Shown piece by piece: positions 7,735 through 64,000 of a stretch of DNA of 64,000 nt. A model generated the notes under the pieces. That model was not told the origin of the DNA. It searched no databases and saw only the letters and a list, made by a program, of their open reading frames with translations. Both the position numbers and the translations under genes were made by a program. Origin of the DNA: Sclerodactyla briareus (lineage: Eukaryota; Echinodermata; Holothuroidea; Dendrochirotida; Sclerodactylidae); NCBI GenBank assembly GCA_026419785.1, contig JAODTK010000333.1, forward strand, positions 124,001 to 188,000, in the 5' to 3' direction. Position 1 is the stretch's first letter. Each line of letters opens with the position of its first letter.

Positions 7735-8000
7735 CATTATTCACATTCTAAACAGTATGCAAGGGAAAATTAACATCAAAGCGGAGGATTATGTCGAGTT
7801 CTTGGGAGAGAGCACTACCAGAGGGCACACAAAGAAATTAGACCCACACGAGTACGGATGGAAGTAAGCAGAACTCCTGTTATAAAAGAATATGAAGTCT
7901 TGGAATATCCTGCCACAGGAAGCCATCACAGCCCAGACACTTAAACAAATCAAGAACTGTATAGCAGATTGTGGATCCTTTCACGGGTCCGTTGAGACCT
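7735..8000 (+). pseudogene. Non-LTR retrotransposon RT C-terminal remnant (CR1/L2-like)
   Basis: In the plus strand one frame reads GKINIKAEDYVEFLGES then TTRGHTKKLD, followed after a frame break by WNILPQEAITAQTLKQIKN. This matches the C-terminal tail seen after the RT of CR1/L2-type elements ('TRGHSxKL ... WNxLPxxVVxAxTVNxFKxxL'). Stops and frameshifts show it is dead or mis-sequenced. The catalytic RT core is not visible upstream; 7331-7734 has no other recognisable feature. Confidence 0.7.
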
Positions 8001-9182
8001 CCTATCCCGACGAAGCCTTTCCTTCAATAGACTCGACTGAGCTAAGTTGAGGGGATGGCTGTCCAGGTAAAATCCAGGTGAATACCATAAAATCACCTAC
8101 ACAAAAGATCATTTATTTAATTCATTCTGGTTTTGATGGGAAAGCTTGGAAACAGGTCACTTTTTGCTACATGTAACATATGTACGCCAACTCCAGAAAT
8201 TGCAGATATATTATTAACAGATGTTATATTGAAAATAACTTTCACGTGTGCATTAAGCCACGTTGCCAATAGCCTACACAGGTGCTGCAGTCTATTTAGC
8301 AGTCTATATAGCGGAAGGGGACATCTTTCCTCTTAGACCTTGAGTATCAATCACGTTGCTGTGCCACTGCCCTCCCACTTGCTCTATTTAGCAGCATGCT
8401 CAAATCAATTTTAGGGTTGAAAGGAATAGGATTTAAATCGGAATTTTCCACCCCCAAATTTTATGTTGACGTAGCATAAACAAGAACTAAGAACAAAATA
8501 ACAGGATTTGGTTGGACCGGATACTTATCTCATTTGGTGTACTCCAGAGCGCCCCCGAAGGGCATTTGATGCAGGATAGTTAGTTTGCAGGAAAGACTAT
8601 ACATTGGCTCAACCAGGTGTCCACTGCCCTCTTGAATACATCTTCACTTACCAGTCCAGCATGTTTGGGGGCAAGGTTTGTGGGGACAATTCATTTATCT
8701 GGTTTGAAGATTTTGTGACACGTCACAATATCTGTAAAATCTCTCCTATGTTCAAGGGTATTCCATTCTAGGGAGGACATGATTTCACTAACACTATCGG
8801 TGCATGAGAAACGCCTGGTAACAAATGTACCAGCTCTGTTTTGGACCATTTCAGTTTCCTTTATTCCTTGACCGTGTAAGACCACACTTGGGATGCATAC
8901 AGTTGGGGGCGAACTATATGTTTGTAGGCGTTTGCTTAACTTGTTGGGGGGGGCAATGGTGAAAACTCCTGCGTAGGAAGTTCAAAGACTTAGTGGCTTT
9001 AGCAGCTATGGAGTTTAGATTATGTGTGGGGTCCATGACAATTTGGAGTCCAACTGACTCCAAGATAGGGGTGAGACGTTGACAGGGGCAAGGGGGTGGC
9101 CAGAGAGACTATATTCAAATTTATAGGGTCTTGTTTTGAGCGTGACCTGTGAGGACATGGCATTTTGTGGGGTTAAAAGACA

Positions 9183-10181
9183 GGTGACAGCCCGATGTTC
9201 ATAAGGGTTTTTATTCATTAGGTCCGTTTGTCATAAGGCCTTTTTATTTATAAGGCCTTTTTGTTCATAAGGCCCGTTATTCATAATGGCCGAAAAGGTT
9301 CTTTATTCATAAAAGTATATTCATATTCACAACAGAAGGTCCGATATTCATAATAGGAAAAAAGGTCCGTTATTCATAATAGGAAAAAAGGTCCGTTATT
9401 CATAATAGGAAAAAAGGTCCGTTATTCATAATAGGAAAAAAGGTCCGTTATTCATAATAGGAAAAAAGGTCCGTTATTCATAATAGGAAAAAAGGTCCGT
9501 TATTCATAATAGGAAAAAAGGTCCGTTATTCATAATAGGGAAAAGGGTCCGATATTCAAGAAGGAAAAATGGTCCGTTACTCATAATAGGAAAACACACC
9601 GGTCGTGGATCTGCCATGGGGATCGCAGCTGACAAAAAGGTGCAGTTTTAGGTTTGCATCCTTTCCGGACCTCGCATAGGTAGAATCATCTGTTTGGCAA
9701 GTATATTATTGAAAAGAAACACATTATGAATAACGGACCTTTTTTCGCGATTTTGAATAACGGACCTCTTTGCTATTATGAATAACGGACCCTTTCCACT
9801 ATTATGAATAACGGACCTTTTTTCGCGATTTTGAATAACGGACCCTCTTTTGCTATTATGAATAACGGTCCCCTTTCGCTTTTATGAATTACGGACCCTT
9901 TTCGCCATTGTGAATATCGACCCTTTTTCAACTATTATGAATATCGACCTTTGTGCTCTGTTATGAATAACAGACCCTTTTGATAATATGAAACCGTGCC
10001 CTTTTTGGTCATTATGCATTCGGACCTTATGACCAAGCCCCTTTTTCTATTATGAATATCGGACCTTTTTGTGTCATTATCGAATACGGACCCTTTTTCC
10101 GAATGTGCCGTATTGAATAAGGGCCTTATGAACAAGACGGCCTTATGAATAAAAAGGCTTAATGAACATTGGGCGGTCCCC
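9183..10181. mobile_element. 999-bp foldback element with long inverted repeats of tandem subunits
   Basis: The left arm (9183-9600) is made of 'ggtccgttattcata'-type units and the right arm (about 9716-10181) of their inverse complement ('tatgaataacggacc'), around a ~115-bp centre without repeats. The termini are inverted: GGTGACAGCCCGATG on the left against GGGGACCGCCCAATG from the right, 12 of 15 identical. It is flanked by an 8-bp direct repeat, aaaagaca (9175-9182) and gaaagaca (10182-10189). It sits inside an RT gene, and removing the element and one repeat joins the RT codons for GMSF and NPTKC. It has no coding capacity, so it must be mobilised in trans. Sea urchin TU elements have comparable architecture (from memory); hAT or Merlin relatives also make 8-bp duplications. 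Confidence 0.85.
9364..9545 (+). repeat. Seven near-identical 26-bp units in foldback left arm
   Basis: Units beginning ggtccgttattcataatagg and ending in an A-run start at 9364, 9390, 9416, 9442, 9468, 9494 and 9520. The seven are identical or nearly so, while flanking units in both arms have diverged. This implies recent local expansion or homogenisation. Confidence 0.9.
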
Positions 10182-10345
10182 GAAAGACATACCCCAGTCC
10201 GTGACAATTGTCGAGGGCTGGACACTTGAAGAGTCATCCTGGAATGCTAATTGGTCTTGAGGGGAGAGATCTATCTGTACAGGGGCAGGGCGTCATCGGC
10301 AAATAGCCAAACATTTGAAGAACACACTCACAAAAGAGGAAATAT

Positions 10346-11240
10346 CATGAATTTAATGGCTTGCTCCATGGCTGCAACACAAAGTTGCCCTACTGACGGA
10401 TTATGAAATGAGTTTCGCCGTTGCCTATGCAGTACCACAGCGATAGTAACGTTTTAGATAGGGCTCCACCTATATATAGTCAACGACACCTAAATTTCGC
10501 GCCCTGTCTAGACCTAGCCACACTAAGTTTCGTAGTCCTAAGCTGGTAGCCTAACTCCGAAAATCGGCAAATGGTTTTTCAGTCTTCGTGACTGTTTCCA
10601 TCGTTCTTCATTATCAATCGCATTTTTCAGTAAAATTGAGTATCTTCGTACCTGTTATATTAACTTCCCAGAAAAGTCTGATTTAGTGGCAGGTCCGACT
10701 CAGTTCCAACTGCGCAAATTGAGGGGGGTTCAAATACAATTACTGATTTTGGTATTCTTCACATAGTTTTTCTGAATTTTCCACCGGAATGGCCCGTTTA
10801 GTATCATTTAAGAGCGTGAGGAAGGTGATTCCAATGGTTGTATTAATCATTGGATCGGAGTCATACAAAGAAAATTATTTGGCAGTCAGAAGTGCTAGGT
10901 GCGCAAATTTGCAGTATGACCATGCTACACATGTATACAAGTGGGAGCCTTCCAAAACGGACGAGCGCCTGTGTGCATACACTGTAGTGGATATGGACCA
11001 GGTCCCACGATTTTCGCGGAACTAGCCTGACATAGTACTTACTGTGAATGTGTAAACAGGGTAAAGCTCCCAAGGATAAAACCTCTGTCATCGCACTGTC
11101 ACGACGAGACAACGAAGATGAAACATATCAGTGTGTGCCGGATAGTGTGGCGGTTGCAAGAATACTTCTTCTAAGAGAGAACTGACGTTTTCCCATTCAC
11201 AATCCCTATTTTTTCGGTCAACACACCAGGCCCTAGCTAT
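10346..11240. other. No recognised feature
   Basis: This is sequence between two RT remnants. Reading frames on both strands near 10789-11112 show no family motif. It may be decayed retrotransposon 3' or 5' sequence, but I cannot support that. Confidence 0.35.
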
Positions 11241-11945
11241 TCGACTGCAAAATAAGACCATGCTTCTGCTCTGCTTGTATGCTGTGCAAACACCTCCAGA
11301 TGGCGGTTATCACGCACAAGGCCAGTGTGGAAGTATGGCAACTAAATTTTAAATGTTGGGCTTTTATATCAAAGCTGTAGGTCAATGGCTGCCACTGGAT
11401 GTGTAATGACTCAATAGTAGGTGTTTCGCGAATCTCAGAAGGGGTAAGTTCCATTCCTCTAATAGTTCTATGATACAACGAGTACTGATAACTATCTTTT
11501 TTAAACTGCGGTAATAAATCTTTTTAAACTGCGGTGTAACATATAGATGTTCCCTGACTTTCCTAGTGCTCCTAATTGTTTCTGTTTGCTGATATGCCTC
11601 ACCTAGGGGGAGTGATGTTATGTATTCTTTTGAAGATAGAAATGAGCCGACGTCTTGTGCGTCTCTCTTCAAGTGGCTCGCCACTGAAGTTCTTCCAGCA
11701 TATTCGATACACTACTACACTACTACGCTATAATTATCATCGTTAAGAACGAACGAGCTGCACGACTTTGAACTTTCTCCATGGTGAAATATCGGTTTGT
11801 ATTATGGGTCCCAGATAAGATGCACACTAAATTCCATCTTGAACGAACTCATACTTTATAATGCCGTTTCTTCACTGATTTACTGCATGAATTACGTTTC
11901 TCTCTCCTTAGAGCATTTTGTTCGCTTTATTCCCTGTCAGGCTAA
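11240..11945 (-). pseudogene. Second non-LTR retrotransposon RT C-terminal remnant
   Basis: Minus-strand frames in order: a segment like ANKML..RR then a Y-K-x-x-V-R-like patch, MEKVQSRAARSFL, VSNMLEELQWRA, LEERRTRRRLISIFK, RIHNITPP, then TPQFKK, YHRTIR and LTPSEIRETPTIES. This is the usual RT-thumb plus C-terminal tail of CR1/Nimb/L2-type elements (RRAARFV, LGWxxLxxRR, RTIxxWNxLPxxI). Frame changes occur at least four times. It ends at 11945 without the catalytic FADD box, so it is 5'-truncated, as is common for these elements. It is distinct in sequence from the remnant at 8690-10345. Confidence 0.78.
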
Positions 11946-14640
11946 GAATTGGTGCTGGGACCAACTAAGTTAATTGCTCAATTCGATGCAATAGCGCCCT
12001 CCTACGCCCCAAATTTGAGCATGACCTGCCACTTACAGACGGCATGTCTTTTCCTGATCCTACCCCACCTTCGGATCATCTCCCTATCTTGGATAAATGT
12101 GATGATATGATGCGCAATCACGGCGGGTGATGTGTGTTTGATGATTGGGAGAGGGGGGGGGGGGGGCGGGACAAGTGAATACCTATCTACAGTGAGCGCC
12201 ACCACTGTTGGCGCATAGCGCACAAAAAGAACATTTTCCCGTGCCTCATATGGGACGTAGGCAGCATAATAAATCGACAACGATTTGTATTTTGGGAAAG
12301 GGTCTCCAAAAACTTATCACTTTAGGGATCAATTTCAGGGTTTTGCGTTGGGTGCTGTGACATTCTATAGGAGACATGCAAGTGAGGTTAACGGTCATGA
12401 AGGAGGCAATGGGAATGCATGGGCAATGGCAACGACCTCTACGTTCGCACGAAACGCGAATTTACAGGATCCAATTTGACAACGACATTGCACTGACCCC
12501 TGACCTATCACTCAGATAGCCCTGCTACTTAGTTTTTTTACTCAAGATTACAGATAACGGCCCATAACGGCCCCCCATTTTAAATCCTCTCTTCCGATCT
12601 GCTATTTTATGGGGTTTCACCCGCACCGTGTGCCGGCCCTCTTAATATGTGCACCGTGCACGCACCGCCACATTCGACATTGCAGGTCGCACCCATAATG
12701 AGAAAAAAAAATCTCGCCAGGTGGTGGTGCCCAACCCCCGTCACCATCACCCCCCTTCACCCAGATACGATTGTTTTGTAGGTTAGTTTATTATAACTGA
12801 TCTCCTAAAGGAATCGACAACGTCCAATGAAGGAGTGCAACACACAAAGTTGGTAAAGACAGTCTTAACGCAAGCGTTGGAATGAAGGAGAACCATTCTT
12901 TCATTGAAAATTATAACAACCCAGAAGTAATTCCAGGCCCGAATAGCAGTCGGCCCCAATATTGGCGGGGGGGGAACAATTGCAATGTCAGGCCCCAACC
13001 CAATTTTTTTTTTTTTTTTTTTGGGGGGGGGGGAGCCGTCTCCCCGCCCCCCATGATCGCCGCACATTAATGTTACCTAAACAGAAATAGGGAAAAGTCG
13101 CACTTGTTGACTTGTTGAAAAAATTCCTGTGACTTGCTTCATGATTGAGTGACCTGTTTCTATTGAAGTTTGTCCAGTGATTTGCCTAAAAATAACTTGT
13201 ATTAACCACCTAGCAAGCGGATGACTGCCAAGGAACGGGGCCCAAGACTCGGTCAACACCGACCACACATATCATTTCGAGACGCTTGGTATCAGCTTTC
13301 GACAGAACCCAGGCCCCCGCTAAGGGGGGGTGGTGCTGGGGGTTTGGCTACAGCCCCTGCAATTTTTCTGACGGGGTGCGTATCACCCGACCGATTTTCA
13401 GGTCACTGTGTCCAGCACCCAGTCGTTTTGAGCTTAGGCTGTCATGAATCAATATTTGCAGAATTTGGTATCCCGGCTTTATTCGATTCCTGGCGCGCGC
13501 GGTAATTTTTCTTCCTTTACTTGAGGCAATTGAATTGAAGAATATCCTAATAATGACCCCAAATCACTCGATTTTTTGATGCTTGGTCTGATAGTATTGG
13601 AAGAAGATCTCTTGATGTTTCCTTATAATTGTTTTATAAAATCCTCAAGGCACCTAAACAACTTGATAAAATACCTAAAAGTGAATTTTTCAGAATGTTC
13701 CTCTGTATATAAACATGCACGTATTTGTATGTTGGCTCGCAGCCCCCCTAGCGTCAACATTCAACCTTGGGGTTGGGTTCGCACAATTTGGCCAGATTCC
13801 TCCCGACCGGTAGTGGGAGGTTGCCACTGTAAAGATTTCCCTTGACGAATCTCATCAATTTTGTTTTTTAAAATCGCCGTAGTTGTGCTCTGTTAATCTT
13901 GTGTACTGGACGTTAAAGGTCGAATCAGCAGCACTGGCCTTTTCCTCCGGTGGTCTGTGAGGCCTGATTTGTTCTAAATTCTTTGGCCTCGCTTTCGCGA
14001 TCAACTGATGACATCCTGCTTTGACGGGCACATCACCATTAAAACCACATACCTACCCCGACATAGGCCTACTACGTTCACAACCCGGGCCTATGCAAGC
14101 CTTCGTATGCACATAGGGGTCTGCACCATGACAAATTTTCAATCATATTTGGATCCGTAATACATAAAATCATACCATGGCGGCGATCAGGAACGGGGTG
14201 GACAATTTGTTCCCCAATATTTGGTGGGGGGATACGATCAAGATACCCCCCCCCCACAAGATTTTGAGCGGACTGGCGAAGACAAACCAAATCCTATGAT
14301 CATATGGCTCGGTAATACGGACAAAACAAAAATGTCCCAACTATATTTGCGTATTAGATTGTTTAATTTTTGGTGGAAGGCCGAAATGCTGGGAGAAAAA
14401 ATAGCGCTGCGGCGATGTATATATATGAAGAAAAAAAAATGACCAAATGTCTGCTGACTGGCTTAATTCCTTTCATTCAAATGCCCTAAAAAAATGCACA
14501 CATTTTCCATGACAGTGATGTTCAAGCAAATTTTTCAATCTGCGCAGCGTCCAACCCAATTGGAAGGGTCCTCGATTGAATATCTCTAAGACAAAAAAAA
14601 TGACTATGGTAAGGAATGGAGACCACGATAAGAAATGTAA
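11946..14640. other. Intergenic, no gene; several G and T runs
   Basis: I see no supportable coding region. There are long homopolymers, notably a G-run near 12153-12166 and a T-run followed by a G-run near 13003-13031. The open frame at 13221-13505 (94 aa) has no recognisable motif. Confidence 0.4.
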
Positions 14641-35039: not shown

Positions 35040-35963
35040 TTCCCTGACTTATGGATTACCTGCTGTCATGTAGCCTCTGCTGCAGTGACACAGCGCCTTC
35101 TAATGTGACAGACACCGCACACGCTCCAAGGTTCTCTTCATATGGCTACCACCAGATATTATTCCACCCACAGTGGATTTTGTATAGACACTGCTATATT
35201 GGCAGCTACCAATAATAAGCTACTGGCCTTGGACAGGGACACAGCGCCCTCTGATGGCTTCACATATGAAACATGAGATAGTAAACCACACATTGTAGAA
35301 AATGTTGGTCTAGGCACTGCTATCATGAAATCTTTGCTGCCTAGGCAAGGGATGACTTCCACTAGCACGACGCCCTCTAGGTACGCTGCCTCCACACTCC
35401 TGATCACTGAAGTATTCAGCCACACAGTGGAGAGTGGAGATTGGTCTTGACATTGTCGTGGACTTGACAGACTTCCAGCTGTCACATGATCTTTGCTACC
35501 CTCGCATAGACACAGCGCCCTTATGAACACTGCCTCCACACGCCTGAATCTGGATGTTCAACCGCCACCGGGAGTGGGATATTGGTCTTGCAATCGTCGA
35601 GACTCGATGAACTTCCGCTGTCACATGATCCTTTGCTACCCTCGTAGAGGCACAGCGCACTCTATGGAACAGCTGCCTCCACACGCCTTACTGGATGTTC
35701 AACCACACCGTGGAGTGTGGATATTGGTCTTGACATCGTCGAGGACTCGATGTCTCCCAGCTGTCACATGATCTTTGCTACCTCAGTAGAGGCCCACGCC
35801 CCTATGGAACAGCTGTCCCTCACGCTTTATGACCAGATTTTCAACCACACATTGAGAGAGGGTTTGGTCTTGACAATTGTCCCAACTCAATGGACTGCAG
35901 CTATCATATAAGTCCTCTGCTACTTTTTGCAGAGACACAGCGCCCTCTAGAGTCCAGCCGATG
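35040..35963. repeat. ~140-bp minisatellite abutting the PTEN stop codon
   Basis: Blocks 'gctgtcacatgatctttgc', 'agacacagcgccctct' and 'tggatattggtcttgac' recur about every 140 bp (near 35480, 35620, 35760 and 35900, with more decayed copies back to about 35040). The unit nearest PTEN runs up to the stop codon at 35964-35966, so the array would form the first ~900 nt of the 3' untranslated region if transcribed. Confidence 0.75.
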
Positions 35964-62236
<26,273 letters not shown>

Positions 62237-63514: not shown

Positions 63515-64000
63515 CCCAAACCTCCCAATCCTCTTGTCCATTAAACCAACATACCCAACCCTCCCAAATCCTCTTGTCCATTAAACCAACCTACCCAAAC
63601 CTCCCAAATTCTCTGTCCATTAAACCAACATAACCCAAACCTCCCAAATCCTCTGTCCATTAAACCAACATACCCAAACCTCCCAAATCCTCTTGTCCAT
63701 TAAACCAACATACCCACACCTCCCAAATCCTCTTGTCCATTAAACCACATACCCAAACCTCCAAAATCCTCTTGTCCATTAAACAAACATACCCAAACCT
63801 CCCAAATCCCTTGTCCATTAACCAACATACCCAAACCTCCCAAATCCTCTTGTCCATTAAACCAACATACCCAACCTCCCAAATCCTCTTGTCCCTTAAA
63901 CCAACATACCAAAACCTCCCAAATCCTCTTGTCCATTAACCAACATACCCCAAACCCCCAAATCCTCTTGTCCATTAAACCACATACCCAAACCTCCCAA
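63515..64000. repeat. 40-bp tandem array continuing past the window
   Basis: The unit 'acctcccaaatcctcttg' + 'tccattaaaccaacatacc' repeats about twelve times with single-base losses. The tryptophan/glycine-rich open frames on the minus strand (for example 63700-63975) are products of the repeat, not genes. The array is cut by the window end. Confidence 0.92.

Follow-up and report, generated by a model that had tools for sequence, protein, structure and literature searches.

The DNA between positions 9183 and 10181 of the 64,000-nucleotide Sclerodactyla briareus stretch analysed here (the window) is a real, cleanly bounded copy of a foldback-type transposon. With moderate confidence, it is read as one copy of a non-autonomous foldback-type TIR DNA transposon that most likely belongs to the MULE superfamily. 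The foldback-TIR reading is based on features that were directly observed, namely inverted tips, an 8-bp target duplication, an empty site, long arms composed of oriented units and the absence of a long ORF. The coordinates of the element, of its parts and of the putative LINE RT remnants on either side are given in Table 1.

Table 1. Positions of the foldback-type element, its components and the flanking RT-like pieces in the window
Feature	Position	Strand	Description
Whole foldback-type element	9183..10181		999 bp; boundary scan; tips found only here in the window
Left target-site duplicate AAAAGACA	9175..9182
Right target-site duplicate GAAAGACA	10182..10189		7/8 identical to the left one
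Left tip GGTGACAGCCCGATGTTCATAAGG	9183..9206	+	holds first motif copy 9189-9204, 12/16 to inner core
Right tip, inverse complement GGGGACCGCCCAATGTTCATTAAG	10158..10181	-	motif copy 6 bp inside, 10/16 to inner core
Left outer array	9198..9291	+	TTCATAAGGCCTTTTTA type, spacing 16-17 bp, 5.6 copies, 73% matches; TRF, 17-bp period
Left inner array	9336..9594	+	26-bp unit, 10 copies, 94% matches; TRF
Middle domain outside arrays	9595..9722		128 bp; GC 0.46 vs 0.34 and 0.39 in the arms
Right inner array	9723..10028	-	26-27-bp unit, ~12 copies, 73% matches, inverse orientation; TRF
Right outer array	10122..10168	-	17-bp unit, 2.8 copies; TRF
Putative LINE RT remnant, downstream of insertion (FNPTKC to C-terminal part)	8709..9182	-	frame changes and stops; tblastn, generic query
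Putative LINE RT remnant, upstream of insertion (FADD motif to TDWGM)	10190..10321	-	FADD match weak alone, E 5.1

Ends of the insertion and the interrupted RT-like sequence

The ends of the element were determined in a boundary scan that covered left ends from 9150 to 9214, right ends from 10150 to 10214 and duplication lengths of 4-11, with one mismatch tolerated at duplication lengths of at least 8 and none below. The highest-ranking placement combined inverted tips matching at 17 of 20 positions with an 8-bp duplication containing one mismatch, and ranks 2 and 3 were occupied by the same site displaced by 1 and 2 bp. Among 200,000 pairs of positions drawn at random from the window, 8-mer pairs with at most one mismatch were found at a fraction of 0.000455, and not a single pair reached 17/20 or more in inverse. 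A degenerate tip pattern with up to three mismatches occurred twice in the 64 kb, both occurrences being the ends of the element, where the pattern is present by construction; 0.01 occurrences were expected by chance as judged from shuffles. No second insertion with the same tips was detected within the 64-kb window, which holds one copy. These results agree with an earlier note on this DNA, which had proposed the same coordinates, a length of 999 bp, a 12/15 match of the tips and exact ends for a foldback element: the proposed boundary ranked first in the scan and its tips are unique in the window. The 8-bp target duplication described there is present at the full length of 8 bp, but its two copies are not identical and differ at one position (AAAAGACA / GAAAGACA). 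The tips, the duplication and the empty site described below show that the insertion was of the cut-and-paste type. From established knowledge, an insertion of the Helitron or LINE type is ruled out by inverted tips together with an 8-bp duplication.

When the two flanks were joined without the element, the LINE-type RT residues TDWGMSFNPTKC were read through in one frame, and the scripted join of the flanks yielded TVTDWGMSFNPTKCHVLTGHAQN in one frame of the minus strand. The junction is free of stops in two of the three minus-strand frames and the third frame contains a stop. Since two frames are open, it is the RT-like residues and not a missing stop that support the empty site. The empty site could thus be reconstructed as had been proposed, with an RT-like reading that crosses the joined flanks. 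The further statement that removal of the element restores the RT applies to the local frame across G-M-S-F-N-P-T-K-C, but does not extend to the gene, as stops and frame changes are present in both flanks; the LINE was therefore either already dead at the time of insertion or has died since.

The RT-like pieces were located with tblastn, using a generic LINE RT sequence as query and 50 shuffled queries as control. To the left of the element, the region 9164-8709 matched query residues 66-215 with 28.8% identity (E 8e-10, 50.1 bits; best score of the shuffled queries 26.9 bits), interrupted by internal stops and a frame break, and a match to query residues 58-128 was obtained in another frame on the same side (E 0.019). 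To the right, a short FADD piece at 10321-10274 aligned with query residues 17-31 and was not significant alone (E 5.1). The pieces flanking the element follow the same order as in one RT query, and the gap between the matches amounts to 27 residues in the query (31 to 58) and to ~31 codons in the DNA (10274 to 10182). This order fits a single RT that was cut by the insert. The Pfam RT model was detected neither in the RT pieces nor in the six frames of 8000-12001, which is compatible with heavy decay, yet counts against an easy RT reading. The RT assignment consequently rests on tblastn with the generic query and on the FADD and FNPTKC motifs. A further piece resembling the C-terminal part of a LINE RT was found on the minus strand at 11681-11911 (query 125-197, E 1.5e-4, tblastn) and also contains stops. 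Located across the element from the main match, it either belongs to another LINE copy or is a rearranged segment of the interrupted one.

Architecture of the arms and coding capacity

The inverted arms of the element measure 412 and 459 bp and are built from oppositely oriented short tandem units of 16-17 and 26 bp. The right outer array mirrors the left outer array, as 45 nt of the two arms (9231-9275 / 10121-10165) are 89% complementary. Inverted-repeat pairs of 40 nt or more were also sought across the window, and the 25 among the matches listed are all located within the element. As single-stranded DNA, the element was predicted to fold with -253.8 kcal/mol, compared with a mean of -100.1 for shuffled versions, none of which (0/20) folded as well; this strong self-folding is due to the inverted arms.

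The units are centred on a TTCATAA motif that is spaced ~16-17 bp apart close to the tips and 26 bp apart further inside. With at most one mismatch, 18 of the 19 forward sites of this core fall into the left arm and all 17 inverse sites into the right arm. The rest of the window holds 2.3-2.4 sites per kb per strand under the same tolerance. The first motif copy starts 6 bp inside each tip, and the match of these copies to the inner core (12/16 on the left and 10/16 on the right) was reached by background fractions of 0.0001 and 0.0018, respectively. Core-to-tip distances agreed between the arms within 2 bp for 16 of 17 left and 16 of 19 right sites, which were hand-picked and compared without a null; because the period is shared, much of this agreement follows from the shared phase. 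The left sites comprised the 19 forward matches minus 9320, 9326 and 9980, plus 9555, and the right sites the 17 inverse matches plus 10077 and 10111.

Six of the 12 listed left units are identical over 26 bp. For 12 left and 11 right hand-picked units, a sample that left out the right sites 9986, 10012, 10027, 10077 and 10111 as well as the outermost ones, the mean unit distance was 0.151 within the left arm, 0.272 within the right arm and 0.233 between the arms. The left inner array is near-homogeneous and the right one has diverged, which suggests that, once the arms had formed, one of them underwent re-amplification or conversion. No array of the 26-bp unit was detected outside the element in the 64-kb window. 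The window also contains other tandem repeats, which were identified by TRF: a 140-142-bp unit at 35371-35923 (~3 copies), a 296-bp unit at 38727-39769 (3.5 copies, 87% matches), a minisatellite of 53-bp units at 49256-49773 (9.8 copies, 92% matches) and a 40-bp array that extends from 63515 up to the window end at 64000 (12.4 copies, 92% matches).

The longest stop-free stretch within the element comprises 81 codons, and no transposase was seen in it. Of the 20 ORFs in the window that span 120 aa or more, 18 were scanned with Pfam, where no transposase model reached its cutoff, and scans of the window for Rfam families and tRNAs were empty. A 130-codon ORF on the minus strand (37593-37982) showed a weak match to the PTEN C2 model (Pfam E 4e-4, 20.5 bits, below the cutoff of 27.1) and matched the PTEN structure 1d5r with an E of 0.016; judged by these similarities, it is possibly an exon of a PTEN gene.

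Proposed transposition and alternative readings

The length of the target duplication, 8 bp, lies within the range of 8-11 bp given for MULEs (PMC6446971). The arms exceed 400 bp and the tips start with GGT and GGG, in line with the G/C-rich first three bases described for most arthropod MULEs (PMC13359780), although one of these bases is a T and the feature is not specific to MULEs. Long inverted arms of short tandem units, with a target duplication (7/8) at the exact tips, are what characterizes foldback elements. Rehavkus, a minisatellite-bearing relative of the MULEs, is described with 9-bp duplications (PMC6446971) and differs in this from the 8 bp of the element. MULE is the likeliest superfamily, with Merlin as a real rival. 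Points that speak against the MULE-foldback reading include that a single copy was seen in 64 kb, that no transposase was found and that the duplicates differ at one of eight positions.

For a MULE foldback, a transposase from an autonomous relative elsewhere in the genome would act in trans on the element by binding the subterminal motif with the putative core CCG-TTATTCATAA. The bound transposase would bring the two arms together and cut at the GG tips, after which the element would be pasted with an 8-bp stagger, and gap repair would give rise to the duplication. By analogy with other foldback elements, we infer that the arm arrays are transposase-binding sites: they would represent iterated copies of the recognition motif, also found once just inside each tip, and more units in an array would provide a stronger platform for the transposase. 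A point against this role is that in Galileo two of the four arm repeats carry no binding site (PMC3688188). Slippage or unequal exchange may lengthen and homogenise the arrays, and would have done so more recently on the left than on the right. The outer spacing of ~16.5 bp would correspond to ~1.5 helical turns and the inner spacing of 26 bp to ~2.5, by arithmetic on the spacings of hand-picked sites, so the two might be about one turn apart, as though the unit had acquired an internal spacer.

An element of this kind might instead be moved by a transposase of the Merlin superfamily (IS1016-like DDE), which we regard as unlikely, albeit with some real weight. The element starts with GG at both ends (GGTG / GGGG) and carries an 8-bp duplication, and GG tips were reported for all Merlin families counted, along with 8-9-bp duplications and arms of 24 to 462 bp (PMC8101967); with respect to tip and duplication, Merlin fits equally well, which argues against the assignment to MULEs. 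Internal tandem repeats are also present in several Merlin families, and the 5' region of Sy.m_F1 contains an oppositely duplicated tandem-repeat block (PMC8101967). However, arms filled by opposed arrays of short units are not described for Merlin in the available parts of that paper (PMC8101967), whereas they are described for MULE foldbacks. A distinctly unlikely alternative is mobilisation by a P-superfamily (THAP), hAT or Zisupton-like transposase. Galileo illustrates that P-superfamily elements can turn foldback-like with transposase sites in their arm repeats, and target duplications of 8 bp occur in hAT, P and Zisupton; the tips of the present element are GG, however, and CA-type ends would be expected for hAT and P elements, which may count against this alternative. 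We attach a similarly small probability to the idea that the element is the founder of a foldback family belonging to neither MULE nor P, driven for instance by a Merlin or an unclassified transposase, with a two-tier recognition array in which tip-proximal sites ~1.5 turns apart and inner sites ~2.5 turns apart would be in register in both arms and transposase units would alternate faces.

A further idea, that the arms now serve chiefly to produce hairpin RNA or to seed satellite DNA, with transposition being secondary, is compatible with the other readings of the origin, but very improbable. It would agree with the very strong self-folding (calculated with DNA parameters), with the higher homogeneity of the left array and with the finding that a satellite of Drosophila virilis was seeded by foldback units (PMC4079207), but the window contains no unit array outside the element. 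Hardly any probability remains for a minisatellite that grew locally, underwent inverted duplication and is flanked by similar 8-mers by chance. In its favour are the homogeneous, array-like character of the left inner array and the mismatch between the duplicates, but this explanation is contradicted by the RT-like reading that is restored at the junction, by the outer 17-bp block that is mirrored in both arms and by the tips inside the duplicates, whose 17/20 match none of the 200,000 random pairs attained.

Relatives and comparison with known foldback systems

Relatives of the element were searched for in several collections. In viral contigs, neither the exact unit pattern nor the tip pattern was found, and the whole element had no match in phage records. 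The exact unit pattern was present in four stretches of prokaryote contigs with one match each, compared with an estimated ~3.7 expected matches for 257 billion bases on two strands, which is about chance level. For the LINE, two queries against viral contigs returned 8 and 4 stretches with the peptide pattern, none of which passed tblastn. The missing relatives say little, as viral, phage and prokaryote collections are not expected to hold a eukaryotic transposon. Six strings from the element were sought in paper texts and none was found. In the foldback literature, no title named the family of the element, judged by titles and abstract openings among the matches listed, which is weak evidence.

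The exact tips and the empty site provide a precise probe pair for finding the autonomous partner; one copy without a partner adds little beyond these probes, and the element is otherwise a well-preserved example of a known foldback plan. In the parts of the respective papers that were available, this plan is already in print for Muta1, Tm1, Galileo and Tetris, of which Muta1 and Tm1 are the published MULE foldbacks that share it. Sea urchin TU elements carry tandem units in their arms and have 8-bp duplications, and the arms of Drosophila FB elements contain tandem units whose length grows inward. In the literature searched, TU elements led only to the Tetris paper, in which foldback elements in sea urchin are mentioned (PMC4079207), and nothing was found on the unit lengths of FB. 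Tetris of Drosophila virilis resembles the element as a non-autonomous foldback with tandem units in the arms, 8-10-bp duplications and a transposase that was not found, but its units of ~220 bp and arms of up to 1,735 bp are different (PMC4079207). Among foldback-type elements, Galileo has been associated with chromosome inversions and Tetris with the birth of satellite DNA (PMC4079207).

Galileo of Drosophila differs from the element in belonging to the P superfamily and in having 1.2-kb arms with few long repeats. Its target duplications are 7 bp long. The two have long, internally repetitive arms in common; of the four arm repeats of Galileo, the first two were reported to hold sites bound by the THAP domain of the transposase and the remaining two to lack them (PMC3688188).

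Tm1 of root-knot nematodes was described as a Mutator/Foldback family with a Phantom-like MULE transposase, in which 45 of 53 elements have 8-10-bp duplications and the tandem units are 13-15 bp long (PMC3169594). Similar to the element, Tm1 includes ~1-kb members without obvious coding potential, its arms are composite with a variable number of tandem units, and an empty site was shown alongside 8-10-bp duplications (PMC3169594). It differs in the sequence and length of its 13-15-bp units, in asymmetric 7-bp end motifs, in 9-bp duplications being the commonest and in the histone-hairpin middle present in one Tm1 group (PMC3169594).

Muta1 of Aedes aegypti, a MULE with a type 2 foldback structure, was active in a yeast assay; it makes 8-9-bp duplications, and its 145-bp arms consist of a terminal motif and nine 12-bp units (PMC5225508). 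According to the same study, duplications of 8-9 bp are common to all 14 Aedes MULE families, and subterminal tandem units of 9-15 bp are present in 10 of the 12 families with long arms (PMC5225508). Unlike the element, with its arms of 412/459 bp, units of 16-17 and 26 bp and no transposase seen, Muta1 encodes a transposase and has shorter arms and units. The duplications of 8-9 bp and the inverted arms composed of a short terminal motif followed by subterminal tandem units are shared. Natural non-autonomous copies of Muta1, which differ in arm length, middle part and unit number, were mobilised in trans in yeast (PMC5225508), and among the systems considered Muta1 is the strongest analogy for the mechanism by which the present element may have moved.
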